A DNA stretch of 64,000 bases, taken from assembly GCF_000519265.1 (NCBI RefSeq), contig NZ_KI912608.1, positions 2,141,313 through 2,205,312 of the forward strand, written 5' to 3'. Each line of letters opens with the position of its first letter. Positions within the stretch are counted from its first letter, which is position 1. This stretch comes from Desulfonatronum lacustre DSM 10312. Its GTDB lineage: Bacteria; Desulfobacterota; Desulfovibrionia; Desulfovibrionales; Desulfonatronaceae. Shown piece after piece: positions 2,959-26,323 of the stretch. The position numbers and the translations under genes are program-made. A model generated the notes under the pieces. It saw only the letters and a program-made list of their open reading frames with translations. It did no database searches and had not been told where the DNA came from.

Positions 2959-3971
2959 AATGCGGCGGAAGGATTTTTATCCGCCAAGGCGAAATACTGA
3001 CGGACCATCCGCACCAGAAGTGCTTCCGCGTCCTCCAGGGGATGATGCAATTCGCCGCCGGAGGCGTTCTTGTGTCCACCACCGCCCACGGAGGAAGCGA
3101 TTTCCTCCACATCCGTGTCACCGGAGGAACGAAGGCTGAATTTGATCTTGCGGGGCTCGTCTTCGCGCAGGCTGACCGCGATTTGCACCCCCTTGACCCG
3201 CCGGATGTAGTCCACCATGTCGTCGCAATCCTCGATGGTGGCTTGTCGCTCGTCGCGAAAGGTCTTGGGAATGGAAAGCACCCCGATTCGCCCGTCATCG
3301 AACAATCTGGCCCGACTCAGGACGTCGCCCATCAGCTTCAATCGGTTTAACCGCCACTGGTTTTGCAACAGGGCGTTGAACCGTCCTGGATTCAGCCCTT
3401 GTCGGATAATGGTCGCCGCCAGCTCCAGCACCTTGGGTCCGGTATTTTCGTAGCTGAAGGATCCCGTGTCCGTGGTCAAAGCAAGGTAAACGGCTTCACC
3501 CAGAGGACCGCTCAGGGGGATGTCCAATTCCTGAGCCAGGTAACCGATCATCTCCCCTACGGAGGACCGATCCGGCTCCACCAGGTTCACCGCGCCGAAA
3601 TCCCGGTTGCTGACATGGTGGTCGATGTTGATCGTGCGCTCCAGAGGCAGGCGGCCGGCCAAGTCCTTGCCCACACGCTTGACGTCGCCGCAGTCCAGCA
3701 GAACATACCATCGCGGTTCCCAGTCCGGATAAACCTGTTGCAAGGGCTGGGAGAAGCGCAACCAGGAGAACCGATCCGGCACCGGGGACTCGTTGTACAG
3801 CCAGTACGTTTTGCCCAGTGCCTTCAGCAGCCATCCCAGGGCCACTGTGGAGCCCAGGGCATCGCCATCCGGATTGTTGTGCCCGGCCACCAGAAAATTG
3901 TCGCCTTCGCGCAACAGGCGCAACACACGGGCCCAACTGTCCGCCGTACTACCTTTCATGGTGACCGTCAT
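2955..3971 (-). CDS. nrnA: DHH-family bifunctional oligoribonuclease / pAp phosphatase
   Basis: A DHH/DHHA1 phosphoesterase of the NrnA type, which degrades very short RNA oligomers and 3'-phosphoadenosine 5'-phosphate (pAp). For a sulfate reducer pAp removal may matter less than nanoRNA turnover. Motifs: HNNPDGDALGS (metal-binding D), LLDCGD, INIDHHVSN (the DHH motif), and the C-terminal DHHA1 glycine block SVGGGGHKNASGG. It is 338 aa, normal for the family. The start ATG at 3971 lies inside the end of rbfA (23-nt overlap); an ATG four codons on (3959) is an alternative. It is in the infB-rbfA-truB operon, as in many bacteria. Confidence 0.93.
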   Translation of the reverse strand: MTVTMKGSTADSWARVLRLLREGDNFLVAGHNNPDGDALGSTVALGWLLKALGKTYWLYNESPVPDRFSWLRFSQPLQQVYPDWEPRWYVLLDCGDVKRVGKDLAGRLPLERTINIDHHVSNRDFGAVNLVEPDRSSVGEMIGYLAQELDIPLSGPLGEAVYLALTTDTGSFSYENTGPKVLELAATIIRQGLNPGRFNALLQNQWRLNRLKLMGDVLSRARLFDDGRIGVLSIPKTFRDERQATIEDCDDMVDYIRRVKGVQIAVSLREDEPRKIKFSLRSSGDTDVEEIASSVGGGGHKNASGGELHHPLEDAEALLVRMVRQYFALADKNPSAAL

Positions 3972-20480: not shown

Positions 20481-20720
20481 ATGCTTATTTTGACCCGAAA
20501 AGCGGGGGAAAGCCTGTACCTGGGCGACGACATCAAGGTCACCGTGCTCAGGGTCCAGGGCAATCAGGTCAAGCTGGGGTTCGACATCCCCAGGGATCTG
20601 ACCGTGCATCGGGAGGAGGTCTATTTGCGGATCAAGGAAGAAAATCTGATGGCCGCGCGGGCCACGGAGCAAGACTTTTTCATGGCGACGGAATTATGGT
20701 CCAGAAAAAAGAAAGAGTAA
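20481..20720 (+). CDS. csrA: Carbon storage regulator CsrA
   Basis: CsrA is a small dimeric RNA-binding protein that represses or stabilises mRNAs through GGA motifs; in flagellated bacteria it controls flagellin translation. It is 79 aa with the standard N-terminus [25 protein letters not shown] and the RNA-contact block [19 protein letters not shown]. No strong SD is visible. It overlaps fliW by 25 nt, so the two proteins, an effector and its antagonist, are made together. Confidence 0.97.
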
Positions 20721-21175
20721 TTCATTCCCGGGTCGGGCCGCTGCATGTAGAGCAGGATCGCCTGATCCTGTTCCCGAAGGGGTTGGTGGGTTTTGAAGCG
20801 CAACGGGATTTCGCCCTGGTCCGATTGCGGGAGGACTCGGCCTTCTTTTTGTTGCAGAGCTGTACGGATCCGCAACTGGGCTTGATGGTCGCCGACCCCT
20901 ACGTGTACGTGCCGGATTACCGGATCAAGATCAGCACGGTGGAGCAAGAACTGTTGCGGTTGAGGAACATTCGCGAGGCCGTGGTCCTGGTCACGGTGAC
21001 CATCCCGCCGGGCAAGCCGGAAGACGCGATCTTGAACCTGGTCGGCCCCTTGGTCATCAACATTCGCCTCCGCCGGGGGATGCAGGTCCCGCAGAACCAG
21101 TTGCGGCACCCTCCGAGGCTGCATCTGGCCGGCGGCGGTCAAACAGGCGAAGGACCGCCATGCGAACCTTCATAA
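20696..21175 (+). CDS. fliW: Flagellar assembly factor FliW
   Basis: FliW binds flagellin and, when free, binds and inhibits CsrA, giving a three-way switch that matches flagellin synthesis to export. The protein is 159 aa. Family motifs: [30 protein letters not shown] (in part FPKGLVGFE), [18 protein letters not shown], and [16 protein letters not shown]. The start at 20696 lies inside the 3' end of csrA. The last 20 residues ([10 protein letters not shown]) are a non-conserved tail. It is the last gene of the flagellar operon and converges on flgM with only 10 nt between the stops. Confidence 0.95.
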
Positions 21176-21185
21176 GCGTCAGGCG

Positions 21186-21491
21186 TCAAACCGACCGTTC
21201 CCAGAGGCCGCTTTCCTGTTCCACCAGTTTTTCGGCGGTCCTGCGACTGTTCATCTCGTAGGTATTGGTCTCCACCTGATGCCTGAGCTGCTCGACCCGC
21301 TCCGTGCGCACCCCGGAACCGGCTTGGGCAGCGGTCATCGCGGCGCGTAGGGTCTGGGCACCGGCGGAGAGGGTGACCCGGTCGCTCTGCTGAGTCGAGG
21401 CTCCCGAAGCAGGCCCGCCACGGGTTGGCTTGTTGCCGACATCCCGATTTTCCGCGGGACGAAAGGTATCAATGAGATTTTTGATTTGCAT
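21186..21491 (-). CDS. flgM: Anti-sigma-28 factor FlgM
   Basis: FlgM holds FliA (sigma-28) inactive until the hook is complete, when it is exported. It is 101 aa. The N-terminus MQIKNLIDTF is typical of the Desulfovibrio-like form; the C-terminal FliA-binding part is RTERVEQLRHQVETNTYEMNSRRTAEKLVEQ (in part), which matches the usual RxxKVxxLKxxIxxGxYxVxxxxIAxKLL pattern loosely. AAGGAGG lies upstream. A sigma-28 promoter precedes it, giving feedback control. Confidence 0.92.
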   Translation of the reverse strand: MQIKNLIDTFRPAENRDVGNKPTRGGPASGASTQQSDRVTLSAGAQTLRAAMTAAQAGSGVRTERVEQLRHQVETNTYEMNSRRTAEKLVEQESGLWERSV

Positions 21492-21517: not shown

Positions 21518-21544
21518 ATATCGGCAAAATCCTGTCGGACTTTA
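21518..21544 (-). promoter_or_regulatory. Sigma-28 (FliA) promoter of flgM
   Basis: On the minus strand TAAAGTCC, then 11 nt, then GCCGATAT; the FliA consensus is TAAAGTTT-N11-GCCGATAA. The spacing is exact and 13 of 16 consensus bases match. It lies 27 nt before the flgM start. Confidence 0.88.
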
Positions 21545-21568
21545 GGCGCGGGCATCGGTCAGGGCCCA

Positions 21569-21985
21569 CTACAGCATCGTCTCGCTGACTTTGTCCAGGG
21601 TAATGCGCCAGAAGCGTTCAAGAATAGTGGTTTTTTCCTCACCGGTGACCTCGACCCGTTCTTCACCGTTCTTGCGCAGAATCTGCATTTCGGGCTCCAG
21701 AGGAAGATACCGAAACTCCATGTCAAAGCCGAACTCCCGTTGCAGATCCCGTTTGATGTCCAGGACTACGGGATTGTTGCTCCCGGAGACCATCAGGCTG
21801 TCCATGATCTCGGTGGCGATCTTCTCCACCAACTGCTTGCGACGGGCATCCTGGGACAAATTGATCACGTCCCCCGGCGAAGCCCGCTGGAGCAGCATGC
21901 GATATCGCGCCATTCGCCGCCCCTGGTCCAGGTGCTGGTCGTAGACGCGAAGCATGTTTTGAACTTGGAACGGCCGAATGGTCAC
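21569..21985 (-). CDS. Uncharacterised flagellar-regulon protein
   Basis: A 138-aa cytoplasmic protein with no signal peptide or membrane segment that I do not recognise as a named family. The sequence is mostly helical and charged (MTIRPFQVQNMLRVYDQHLDQGRRMARYRML, in part), with LSQDARRKQLVEKIATEIMDSLM and a strand-rich centre FGFDMEFRYLPLEPEMQILRK. A similar gene next to flgM is, as I remember, present in Desulfovibrio. It starts with GTG at 21985, preceded by GAGGAG. A perfect FliA promoter lies 22 nt upstream, so it should be a late flagellar gene; a regulatory or chaperone role is only a guess. Confidence 0.85.
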   Translation of the reverse strand: MTIRPFQVQNMLRVYDQHLDQGRRMARYRMLLQRASPGDVINLSQDARRKQLVEKIATEIMDSLMVSGSNNPVVLDIKRDLQREFGFDMEFRYLPLEPEMQILRKNGEERVEVTGEEKTTILERFWRITLDKVSETML

Positions 21986-22007
21986 AATGGATTACTCCTC
22001 ATGACTC

Positions 22008-22034
22008 TTATCGGCGGACTTCTGAAAAACTTTA
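22008..22034 (-). promoter_or_regulatory. Perfect sigma-28 (FliA) promoter
   Basis: On the minus strand TAAAGTTT (22034-22027), an 11-nt spacer, and GCCGATAA (22015-22008) match the FliA consensus at every position. It drives the uncharacterised gene at 21569-21985 and possibly flgM by read-through. Confidence 0.93.
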
Positions 22035-22082: not shown

Positions 22083-23351
22083 TCAGTACGTTCCTTCGTA
22101 GATGATGCGCCACTGGCCGTCGGCTTCGTGCCTCCAAAACTGACGTTTGCGGGAAGAGGACTGAAAATTATCGCTCCAATAATCCTGGAAAAAAGTGGCC
22201 ACCATGACTCCAGGAGCTTCAGGGTATTCAAAGAGGTTGACGTTGGTCAGATGGACCCGAATTTCGCTTTTTCCGGCGTTGACCCTCCGCTTGTGTCGCG
22301 CCCAGGCGGCATGGTTCTGGGACCCGCTTCGAAAATCCCGTGAGTAATGCGTCAAATAAGCGTCGGTATTCAGACTTTCCCAATCTGAACGCCACGCTTC
22401 CAGCATGTCCAGCATTTCCTCGCGGGTCATGTCCAAGTCCCCCGGATCAGCCCAGGACACTCGCCGGGCGATGACCACGGGGACATTACCGTGCTTGAGC
22501 AACGGAGCCAGGGCTTCCAGGTCCTTGTTGTGCATGGTCACGCACCCGTCGCTGTCCTGGGGCGGACGACTGAACGTCCCAGTGGGATTTCCGTGCAGCC
22601 AAATTCCGTGCCCGGTCTTACCCAATCGACGGTCCAGCGGATTGGGATAATCCAGAGTGAAGGCCCCCCAGCCATACAAATTGGGAAGACGGCTTCCTGG
22701 AATATGCTCCTGAATGAAATACACGCCCAAAGGCGTCCGTCGGTCGCCTTCCCGGTGCTTCTCCGGGCCCTCCTTGCCTCCGGACACGTAATAGTCGTCC
22801 ACAATGCGCAACCCGTCGCCTATATTCGCCAAGACGTACATCCGGGACAGTTCCAGATCCACGACCAAGGCGTACGGCTCGCTCTCACCCAGGGCGACCA
22901 GGTTGGACGGCAACAGCGCGCCGTTATTCGGCCGTTGCTGGTAGTACAGCCATCGCCGACGGACTTCATCCGCCAGCCCGGCCAGTTCCTCGTCAGGAAC
23001 AACCCCCGCTCCGAGCCCGCGCAACGCCCCGGCCCGAGCCGCCAAAACATCGGCATAGACCAGTTGGGCCAGACGGAAGTCCGGATTGTCCCGAATCAGG
23101 TCCTCCAGCAGGACCTGGGCCTGGTCCAGGCGCTCACGCTGCACGTTCTCCAAGGCGTTGAGCAGAAACACCTCTGGTTCTCGGGTAATGCTCAACCCAT
23201 GCCCCTTGGCCAGAAGTTCCTCCACGTTCGCCTCGGCCGGCCGACTTGGAAGGAATAGCAAGCAACAGGTCAGAGCCAGGAGCGCAACCCCGAGGGAAAC
23301 GACTCGGCGTGCAAGCTCATGAACGACGAAGGCGGATCCTTGCAAGGCCAT
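22083..23351 (-). CDS. L,D-transpeptidase (YkuD) with C-terminal NTF2-like (Cds6-type) domain
   Basis: A 422-aa exported murein cross-linking or protein-anchoring enzyme. A signal sequence is present (VVSLGVALLALTCCLLFLPSRPAEA). Residues about 45-130 look helical and TPR-like; the YkuD catalytic domain spans about 160-300, with YALVVDLELSRMYVL, GIWLHGNP and the active-site SDGCVTMHN (catalytic Cys near residue 267 and His near 254). The C-terminal 110 residues (LEAWRSDWESLNTDAYLTHYSRDF in part, ending GQWRIIYEGTY) form an NTF2-like domain as in Cds6-type L,D-transpeptidases. The neighbouring gene at 23481 appears to carry the same domain. It may act in cell-wall remodelling. Confidence 0.9.
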   Translation of the reverse strand: MALQGSAFVVHELARRVVSLGVALLALTCCLLFLPSRPAEANVEELLAKGHGLSITREPEVFLLNALENVQRERLDQAQVLLEDLIRDNPDFRLAQLVYADVLAARAGALRGLGAGVVPDEELAGLADEVRRRWLYYQQRPNNGALLPSNLVALGESEPYALVVDLELSRMYVLANIGDGLRIVDDYYVSGGKEGPEKHREGDRRTPLGVYFIQEHIPGSRLPNLYGWGAFTLDYPNPLDRRLGKTGHGIWLHGNPTGTFSRPPQDSDGCVTMHNKDLEALAPLLKHGNVPVVIARRVSWADPGDLDMTREEMLDMLEAWRSDWESLNTDAYLTHYSRDFRSGSQNHAAWARHKRRVNAGKSEIRVHLTNVNLFEYPEAPGVMVATFFQDYWSDNFQSSSRKRQFWRHEADGQWRIIYEGTY

Positions 23352-23480: not shown

Positions 23481-24803
23481 TCATGATCGCGGCAGCAGGC
23501 GCTCCCTGGTGATCCGCCACTGGCCGCCTTCCTTGCGCAATTGCAATTCCTTGGACACCTCATCGTTGATCACGTTGGATCGGTAGCGTTGGGCAAAGCG
23601 AACCTGAGCCGCGTTCTCGTCCAGAATGGTGACGACGATATTGGAAAGGGTCACATTGATAAAGGGCGGAGCAGCCACCCGTGTCCGGCGCTGTTCTCGC
23701 CATTGCGCCAGACTGAGCCCGCGTTCGGGCTGAAAATTTCCGCTGTAAAAAGACAGGTATGCTTCTACGTTCTGGCTCGCCCAGGCATTAGCCCAGTTCA
23801 GCACCACGTCGGTGATGGCCGCCTTGACGGTATCGGGGCTGGGACGCGGCGCGGGGGCTTCAGAGGCCGGTGGCGCGGGAGGGGTTACGGACGGAGGAGC
23901 TGGGGCCGTCGGAGCCGGGACGGGTTCAGGTGCCGGAACGATCACCTGCTCCGGAGTCGCCGGCCGGGGTGCGACGGGTTCGGGAGCCGGTTCGACAACA
24001 GGTTCGCTGACCGGCTCAGGTACGGGCTCAAGTACAGGCTCAGTGCTCGGCTCGGGAGCCTCAGGGACAACGAATTCGGCTGCCGACGCAGGGCTGGACT
24101 GTGGACTGGTGGTCGGCGTGATTTCCGGGGTGGCTTCTGGTGCGGCTTCCGACGCGGCTTTTGGCGCGGCCGCGATTGGCTCCGGGGAAGGTCCAGGGGC
24201 CGCCGGAGAGGGGAGAAGTGGTGGAGACTCCACCACTGATGCGGGACCATGAGGGGCGACTGAGGCCACGTAAAGGGTCGCCGCGGGCAGCGGCATGTCC
24301 GGGGTACCGGACAGTTCTTCCAACGGGTCGAGACGCACGAGAATCCTTTCGTCGTCCTTGCCCAGGACCCGGCGGTACGCGCTGCTGGCCATGGCCGAAT
24401 AAATCCGGCTCAGATTTTGATGAGCCGTGGCATAGCTGGGATGCGTCTCCAGGGCCCGTTGCAGGGTGTCCTTGGCCTCCTCGAACCGCCCCGCGGCCGC
24501 CAGCAGACCAGCCAAATTGTTGTAGGGCTCGGGCAGTTCCGGATGACGTTCAATCAGATCGTGGTAGACCTCCATGGCTTCGGAGAACCGCCCCAGGCGT
24601 TCTAGAATGACACCTTTCAAAAACAATCCTTGAGTATCCTTAGGATGGCGTTGGAGGTGGCCCTGGATGGCCTGGTAGGCGTCGGCGACTCGCTCTTCGG
24701 CAAAAAATTCCTGGGCCGTTTCCAGACCGGAAGGAGCCGAGAACAGGGGAGTGGCACTCCAAAACAGAACACATAACGCGGCCAGACAGGAAATATACTT
24801 CAT
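23481..24803 (-). CDS. TPR protein with proline/glutamate-rich linker and C-terminal NTF2-like (Cds6-type) domain
   Basis: A 440-aa probably periplasmic protein. The ATG at 24803 overlaps the malQ stop (TGATG) and is followed by a clear signal peptide, MKYISCLAALCVLFWSATPLFSA. Residues about 25-145 contain tandem TPR units (LFLKGVILERLGRFSEAMEVYHDLIERHP, in part; NNLAGLLAAAGRFEEAKDTLQRALETHP, in part). A 150-residue linker of EPVPEPV-type repeats follows. The last 110 residues (WANAWASQNVEAYLSFYSGNF, ending GGQWRITRERLLPRS) match the C-terminal domain of the adjacent L,D-transpeptidase. No catalytic motif is visible; a scaffold or partner of the transpeptidase is an inference. Confidence 0.83.
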   Translation of the reverse strand: MKYISCLAALCVLFWSATPLFSAPSGLETAQEFFAEERVADAYQAIQGHLQRHPKDTQGLFLKGVILERLGRFSEAMEVYHDLIERHPELPEPYNNLAGLLAAAGRFEEAKDTLQRALETHPSYATAHQNLSRIYSAMASSAYRRVLGKDDERILVRLDPLEELSGTPDMPLPAATLYVASVAPHGPASVVESPPLLPSPAAPGPSPEPIAAAPKAASEAAPEATPEITPTTSPQSSPASAAEFVVPEAPEPSTEPVLEPVPEPVSEPVVEPAPEPVAPRPATPEQVIVPAPEPVPAPTAPAPPSVTPPAPPASEAPAPRPSPDTVKAAITDVVLNWANAWASQNVEAYLSFYSGNFQPERGLSLAQWREQRRTRVAAPPFINVTLSNIVVTILDENAAQVRFAQRYRSNVINDEVSKELQLRKEGGQWRITRERLLPRS

Positions 24804-26323
24804 CAGGATTCGGAGCCTCTTCCATACAAGGTCGTCATGTCCAGGAGCTTTTTGCGAACCCCGCCTTCCAAGTCGCTCAACACCTCCGGGGGCATCCGCC
24901 AGGACCAGTTGCCGTTGGCTACGCCGGGCACGTTCATTTTTGACGCTGCTCCCAAACCCAGAATGTCTTGCAGTGGAAAGATGGCCACGTCCGCCACGGA
25001 CTGCATGCCCATGCGCACGAAGGCGGTGGCCACGATTTCCGAGGTACAGGAAGCGCCGAGATAGGCGTCCACACGGGCCAGGGTCTCCGCATCGGCCTCT
25101 TCCTCGAACCAACCGCGCACCGTGTTGTTGTCGTGGGTACCGGTATAGACGTAACAGTTTTGAACGTGGTTGTGCGGAGCATACGGATTCGTGGGCAGGT
25201 CCGGACCAAAGGCGAAGAGCAGGATCTTCATCCCCGGCAGCTTAAATTCCCGCATCACGTCGCGCACCGCGTCGTCGATGGTTCCCAAATCCTCGGCAAT
25301 CAGCGGCAAAGGATCAAAGGCTTCGGCAAGGGTCCGGAAAAAAGCCTGGGCCGGAACCTCGGCCCACTGGCCGTGCATGGCGGTCTCGTGTCCGGCCGGA
25401 ACCTCCCAGCAGGCCACGAAGCCCCGAAAATGGTCCAGACGAACCAAGTCGAACAACTCCACGTTGCGCCGGATGCGCCGCACCCACCAGGCGAAATCGC
25501 CCCGCTCCATCCGCTGCCAATCATAGACCGGATTGCCCCAGAGCTGACCGGTCTCGCTGAAGTAGTCCGGAGGCACCCCGGCCAGAACACGGGGCCGAAG
25601 CTGATCATCAAGCTTGAACAGCTCCGGATTGGCCCAGACGTCCACGCTGTCCTCGTTCACATAGATGGGCACGTCGCCGATCAGTTCCACGCATCTGTCG
25701 CGGCATGATGCCCGCAAGGCCCGCCACTGCTGAAAGAAAACGAACTGCTGGAAACAGATCAGGTCTATCTCGTTTTGAAGCGTGTTGCGGTAGCCGTCCA
25801 ATGCCAAGGCATCTCGTCGCCGCGCATCCTCCGGCCATTCCGTCCAGGGGCGACCCTGGAAGTGGGCTTTCAAGGCTCGAAACAGAGCGAAATCCTCCAA
25901 CCAGACACCCTGTTCGGCGCGAAATGCCGCAACGGCCCGTTGGATTTCGGGTCGCACGCCCGCATCGGCAAACGCCTTGGCCAGCAACACCTCCCGAATT
26001 TCACGGGCCGTGGCGTACTTGACCCGGTCCACGGGAATCTCGGCGATGTTTCGAAGATCGTCCGGGCGAAGCAAGCCGTCCCGGACCATGTCCTCCGGGC
26101 TGATCAGCAGAGGGTTTCCGGCAAAGGCCGAGTCGCTGCTGTAAGGAGAGTTGCCGTGCACCGGAGACGTGGGGTTCAAGGGCAGCATCTGCCAGTAGCG
26201 CTGTCCGGAGGCCGCCAGAAAGTCCGCGAAATTCCTGGCCTCCGGCCCCAAGTCGCCCACGCCGTACCGCGAAGGCAGAGACGTAACGTGCAGCAGGATG
26301 CCGCTGGATCGGTTTCGGATCAT
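24803..26323 (-). CDS. malQ: 4-alpha-glucanotransferase (amylomaltase)
   Basis: MalQ (GH77) transfers alpha-1,4-glucan segments between maltodextrins. It is 506 aa, normal for the bacterial type. Motifs: GILLHVTSLPSRYGVGDLGPEA at the N-terminus, GDVPIYVNEDSVDVWANPELF (with substrate-contacting residues), VRLDHFRGF (catalytic Asp nucleophile), and IAEDLGTI (acid/base Glu). ACTGTHDNNTV-like YTGTHDNNTVRGW holds the third Asp. The start lies 4 nt after the glgB stop, and its stop overlaps the next gene by 1 nt, so it is the third enzyme of a treS-glgB-malQ operon for glycogen and trehalose metabolism. Confidence 0.96.
   Translation of the reverse strand: MIRNRSSGILLHVTSLPSRYGVGDLGPEARNFADFLAASGQRYWQMLPLNPTSPVHGNSPYSSDSAFAGNPLLISPEDMVRDGLLRPDDLRNIAEIPVDRVKYATAREIREVLLAKAFADAGVRPEIQRAVAAFRAEQGVWLEDFALFRALKAHFQGRPWTEWPEDARRRDALALDGYRNTLQNEIDLICFQQFVFFQQWRALRASCRDRCVELIGDVPIYVNEDSVDVWANPELFKLDDQLRPRVLAGVPPDYFSETGQLWGNPVYDWQRMERGDFAWWVRRIRRNVELFDLVRLDHFRGFVACWEVPAGHETAMHGQWAEVPAQAFFRTLAEAFDPLPLIAEDLGTIDDAVRDVMREFKLPGMKILLFAFGPDLPTNPYAPHNHVQNCYVYTGTHDNNTVRGWFEEEADAETLARVDAYLGASCTSEIVATAFVRMGMQSVADVAIFPLQDILGLGAASKMNVPGVANGNWSWRMPPEVLSDLEGGVRKKLLDMTTLYGRGSES

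Follow-up and report, generated by a model that had tools for sequence, protein, structure and literature searches.

Results

The window analysed here is a 64,000-nucleotide stretch of the Desulfonatronum lacustre DSM 10312 genome. It contains, on the minus strand, a gene for a 138-residue protein followed by flgM. The features of the locus, in window coordinates, are as follows.

22034..22008, minus strand: sigma-28 (FliA) promoter, exact TAAAGTTT-N11-GCCGATAA, conserved in homologues
21569..21985, minus strand: DVU0524-family gene, 138 residues, GTG start, stop codon at 21569-21571
21794..21982, minus strand: N-terminal domain, residues 2-64, matched by the NF041863 model
21572..21790, minus strand: C-terminal FlaG-like domain, residues 66-138, from profile comparison; predicted alpha-beta-beta-beta-alpha
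21519..21545, minus strand: second sigma-28-like site, before flgM, TAAAGTCC-N11-GCCGATAT, 13/16
21186..21491, minus strand: flgM, anti-sigma-28 factor, 101 residues (Pfam FlgM, 1e-13; TIGR03824, 8e-13)
20696..21175, plus strand: fliW, convergent neighbour (Pfam FliW, 8.5e-32)
20481..20720, plus strand: csrA, convergent neighbour (Pfam CsrA, 3.6e-24)

flgM lies 77 bp downstream of the 138-residue gene in the same orientation, and we found no terminator-like site between the two. The 138-residue reading frame is under strong purifying selection, with Nei-Gojobori dN/dS ratios of about 0.18 and 0.09 relative to its homologues in two close relatives, at loci L031 and L032, respectively. The sequence-only reading that preceded this analysis had described an exact sigma-28 consensus in front of a reading frame adjoining flgM, and both statements were borne out. 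It had also credited flgM with a near-perfect copy of the promoter; this second site is weaker, and its score of 13/16 makes it good rather than near-perfect. Elsewhere in the window, the minus-strand gene at 22083-23351 encodes a YkuD L,D-transpeptidase with a Cds6 C-terminal NTF2-like domain (Pfam), and its C-terminal end looks by eye like that of the minus-strand product of 23481-25112, taken from the list of open reading frames.

The promoter of the 138-residue gene matches all 16 bases of the sigma-28 consensus and is the only such match in the 64-kb window; 100 dinucleotide shuffles of the window gave none. Its first base is 49 bp from the start codon. The GTG lies 22 bp past the -10 element, with AGGAG in front of it. 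Across all 3.76 Mb of the genome, the pattern TAAAG-N14-GCCGATA[AT] occurs at six sites, and the same pattern read backwards at none. Two of the six are at this locus, before the 138-residue gene and flgM; the others precede flaG, two chemoreceptor-like proteins, and a small lipoprotein-like protein, the chemoreceptor and lipoprotein labels being assigned by eye (contig C1, positions 154912, 2485539, and 3627303; loci L163, L167, and L168). Since these six sites fit an expected sigma-28 regulon, the site before the 138-residue gene is very probably a real promoter.

The protein had been described as belonging to no known family. Pfam indeed has no model for it: no family matched at E ≤ 10, which places the protein below the gathering score of PF03646 (FlaG). 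It is nevertheless a member of NCBIfam NF041863, the 'DVU0524 family FlgM-associated protein', scoring 83.6 bits where the cut-off is 40 (E 8.7e-24; 85.6 bits at the genome locus). The model spans only residues 2-64. The earlier reading missed the existing family name and also the FlaG-like C-terminal domain described below, which points to the flagellar export gate. We found no function for the DVU0524 family in the open-access literature, to which the search was confined. The NF041863 model probably does not reach all members of the family: a 79-residue reading frame about 2.5 kb from flaG in genome G119 (contig C18, 461712-461804), a genome absent from the NF041863 matches, is matched by our N-domain profile with E 0.0017.

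Among 395 genomes of the phylum, the NF041863 domain has 128 matches in 125 genomes, while FlgM is found in 266 and flagellin in 243. Of the 125 genomes with the domain, 117 also have FlgM and 115 have flagellin; flagellin is present in 128 of the 270 genomes without the domain. We assembled 103 loci, comprising 100 fetched regions, the window's own copy, L031, and L032; the 27 NF041863 matches outside this set are among the weaker ones. A same-strand flgM lies downstream of the family gene in 74 of the 103 loci, codirectional in 74 of 74, the median gap being 17 bp. A sigma-28 site scoring at least 12/16 is present within 250 bp upstream of the family gene in 92 of 103 loci, compared with 17 of 515 mononucleotide shuffles; the threshold was picked after the distribution had been seen, and the loci are akin to each other, so that shuffles and Fisher tests overstate independence. 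Control regions upstream of csrA (0/24), fliW (0/24), and flgL (0/36) contain no site of this quality. These data are direct observations of the promoter, of the operon order, and of the conservation of both. As flgM has its own site of at least 12/16 in only 17 of the 74 loci, it would usually be read through the family gene, as judged from the distribution of sites. The general plan appears to be one sigma-28 promoter, then the family gene, then flgM, with the second site in the window as an exception, and the two genes are probably co-transcribed.

Retention of the sigma-28 site mostly goes with the presence of flagellin. In genomes with flagellin, 88 of 95 loci have a site of at least 12/16 (seven fall below); in genomes without flagellin, two of six fetched loci keep one (four fall below). 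The suggestion that the 138-residue protein is a late flagellar factor is therefore well supported, both by the retention of the sigma-28 site across the phylum and by the co-occurrence of the gene with flagellin. In four genomes of the same genus (G282, G053, G196, and G321), the family gene is present and neither FlgM nor flagellin was matched, as if the gene had outlived the flagellum; the copy in G282 (L127:2752-3183) has no discernible sigma-28 site, the best scoring 9/16.

The sequence-only reading had also proposed that the protein might act with FlgM, CsrA, or FliW. For FlgM, the support given by the conserved, always codirectional gene pair extends to genetic linkage and probable co-transcription, short of physical interaction. 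CsrA and FliW, with 24 reading frames each in the flanks of the 103 loci, are merely convergent neighbours in a subset, and no result points to an action on them.

The tightest conserved feature of the family is its adjacency to flgM, which raises the question of whether the protein is a FlgM accessory, binding FlgM or the FlgM-sigma-28 complex and either shielding FlgM or handing it to the export gate. On this view the N-terminal domain would hold the core function, with the FlaG-like part as an addition found in some lineages. It fits this idea that N-domain-only versions of about 70-85 residues still precede flgM in several loci (e.g. L044, L045, L051, and L052). Yet the linkage is one of expression only, and 29 of the 103 loci have no flgM nearby. 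For 12 of these 29 the reading frames were listed, and ten neighbouring proteins were scanned from L077, L120, L126, L128, and L129. In L120, fliD, fliS, and an unassigned gene are followed by the N-domain gene and two response regulators; in L129, the N-domain gene stands between a FliT-like gene (E 4e-4) and a response regulator; fliS is close by in L077 and flaG in L126. A position between fliD-fliS-fliT-like genes and response regulators, often seen in the flgM-less loci inspected, is unexpected for a dedicated FlgM partner, and we consider the accessory role rather unlikely. The context was flagellar in the family loci looked at, and the neighbours just listed show that the short N-domain turns up repeatedly beside late flagellar genes, and not beside flgM alone.

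The protein is shorter than 118 residues, consisting of the N-terminal domain alone, in 46 of 101 typed genomes. With so many lineages having only this domain, what the family does cannot be explained by the FlaG part alone. N-domain-only versions directly precede response-regulator-like genes in L077, L118, L120, L122, L128, L129, and L131 (around position 3000), and several of them follow fliD, fliS, or FliT-like genes, as confirmed by Pfam for the scanned proteins of L120, L129, and L077. It is possible that the small N-domain is tied to two-component control of flagella. Another set of versions, of 112-113 residues, has a different C-terminus (L091:2854-3192, L095, L096, L099, L101, L102, and L117); these are possibly intermediates between the DVU0524 family and FlgM.

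The N-domain has the consensus M-x-I-x-x-Y-x-V-Q-N-x-L-R-x-Y, a linker, and D-x-V-x-[IL]-S-x-E-A-[RK]-R. It is collinear with the N-terminal half of FlgM, from M1 to the D-x-V-x-LS motif: both proteins, encoded by adjacent genes, begin with M-x-I and continue through a polar linker to D-x-V-x-[LI]-S-x-x-[SA]-[KR]. An hhalign comparison of the N-domain with FlgM gave 57% (E 1e-4); controls reached at most 0.5% and permuted decoys at most 1.3%, one permutation value in the decoy set being a repeat of the previous one. When the N-domain profile was run with HMMER over 31 genomes, all selected for having a FlaG match, FlgM genes appeared at the noise level (E 0.17 and 0.34). Neither FlgM model (PF04316, TIGR03824) matched the 138-residue protein at E ≤ 1. 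Of ten further family members, TIGR03824 weakly matches one (L091, residues 15-84, E 0.007), and Pfam FlgM gave sub-threshold matches in two (E 0.03 and 0.11). An iterated FlgM profile matched eight of the 103 family members and was discounted, as the curated FlgM models gave little support.

A distant FlgM-type N-terminus in the first 64 or so residues is therefore suggestive only; because the independent HMMER test failed, it stays a suggestion. The same evidence bears on whether the protein could be a divergent FlgM paralogue, in which the D-x-V-x-[IL]-S segment contacts sigma-28 and which tunes sigma-28 directly, whether by competing with FlgM or as an anti-sigma factor of weak or partial effect. 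The hhalign score above controls and decoys, together with the weak matches in L091 and two other members, speaks for such a relationship. Against it stand the noise-level result over the 31 genomes, the lack of any FlgM model match to the 138-residue protein itself, and the absence from it of any trace of the remainder of the FlgM domain, where most of the contacts with sigma-28 lie. A paralogue acting on sigma-28 seems to us very unlikely.

Long family members carry about 70 extra residues after the N-domain. Pfam FlaG was matched by five of 46 full-length or long members, with a best E-value of 3.6e-4. In an hhalign comparison with 30 FlaG proteins from relatives and the same genome, the C-domain scored 92% (E 7e-7); controls (CsrA, FliW, FlgL, and FlgK) gave at most 0.5%, and the best of 150 column-permuted FlaG decoys gave 1.6%. 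A C-domain profile built from 35 sequences was run over 31 genomes chosen for having a FlaG match: all seven non-family matches at E < 0.003 were FlaG genes, and at E ≤ 1 the profile recovered FlaG in 15 of these 31 genomes. By these profile comparisons, the C-domain is a remote homologue of FlaG. About 60 C-terminal residues align by profile with FlaG proteins (PF03646), which include C. jejuni FlaG, B. subtilis YvyC, and the H. pylori FlaG of known structure (6jsx).

The C-domain modelled alone by AF2 has a mean pLDDT of 82 and an alpha-beta-beta-beta-alpha topology, a predicted likeness to FlaG. The predicted fold matches the solved FlaG only weakly: Foldseek placed 6jsx_A at rank 19, with E 1.1 and a TM-score of 0.30, and sequence profiles reach 6jsx only at E 0.4-0.64. 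In a VIA fold search with the C-domain model, FlaG was absent among the 50 matches listed, and neither Foldseek nor the VIA matches listed contained a convincing structural match. A full-length model built from three close sequences was poor, with a pLDDT of 53, and searching for folds with it yielded no usable match. Taken at the level of the family, it is well supported by the profile comparisons that the C-terminal 70 or so residues are a divergent relative of FlaG; the link is a family-level one because the 138-residue protein itself reaches no Pfam model.

The D. lacustre genome also contains a canonical flaG with its own sigma-28 site. The site is a feature that the two genes share, while the presence of a canonical flaG means that the role of the 138-residue protein is not simply that of FlaG. 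Unlike FlaG, the protein has a family-specific N-terminal domain, is encoded with flgM, and remains below the Pfam threshold. We considered a strict replacement of FlaG by the long form and rejected it, as 33 of 50 flagellin-positive long-form genomes also have a FlaG match, a search that may count a few family C-domains, since several genomes show two matches. In one genus (g3 of family f2), a single lineage, all ten flagellin-positive genomes carry the long form while lacking a FlaG match (G076, G109, G138, G165, G190, G256, G317, G335, G353, and G372).

Discussion

The gene described here stands next to the sigma-28 promoter that probably drives a conserved flgM operon. As the family name says, the 138-residue protein adjoins flgM; the name gives no hint of a FlaG-like domain at the C-terminus, of a sigma-28 promoter kept in homologues, or of contexts without flgM. 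As far as our searches show, neither the FlaG-like domain nor the phylum-wide order of sigma-28 promoter, family gene, and flgM has been described.

A guide to function comes from C. jejuni FlaG. As described in PMC12445086, C. jejuni FlaG binds FlhA, where it and FliS, the flagellin chaperone, work against one another from neighbouring sites; FlaG lowers flagellin delivery, its loss results in longer filaments, and it is itself secreted. By analogy, we propose as the likeliest reading, tentatively and at a little short of even confidence, that the 138-residue protein acts in the manner of FlaG on the flagellar type III export gate, as a late modulator made with FlgM. The release of sigma-28 would start its synthesis along with that of FlgM. 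Through the FlaG-like domain it would then dock on FlhA in the export gate, or else on the gate's chaperone-substrate complexes, and docking would slow the passage of late substrates, namely flagellin and perhaps FlgM. Slowed export would in turn determine how long the filament grows and dampen the output of sigma-28. The protein may itself be exported. The expression and domain parts of this proposal are well supported; the mechanism we infer, including docking on the gate, export, and the direction in which the protein acts.

That the protein is instead exported as a minor building block of the filament or the cell surface, without a regulatory role, is also very unlikely: its apparent sigma-28-dependent late expression, the secretion of FlaG in C. 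jejuni, and the PDB title of 6jsx, which names HpFlaG a flagellin protein, would fit, but a placement by flgM, and elsewhere by fliD, fliS, and fliT-like genes and response regulators, looks regulatory.

Export-gate modulation could be taken one step further. The protein might be a dedicated governor coupling the growth of the filament to the output of sigma-28, combining a FlgM-derived N-terminus with a FlaG-derived gate-docking domain and competing with flagellin and FlgM for export. We regard this extension as distinctly unlikely. If it were true, each round of late export would feed back on filament length and on the sigma-28/FlgM balance.

The order of genes reported here is found in many sulphate-reducing and related bacteria. 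Since flgM seems to be transcribed behind the family gene in many members of the phylum, accounts of sigma-28 feedback in these organisms should include the family gene. For a named family without a function, the FlaG-type domain provides a concrete hypothesis, with FlhA binding and filament length as its subjects. Filament-length control and the sigma-28/FlgM checkpoint are normally treated apart; a FlaG-type domain encoded in the flgM operon is a testable link between the two.
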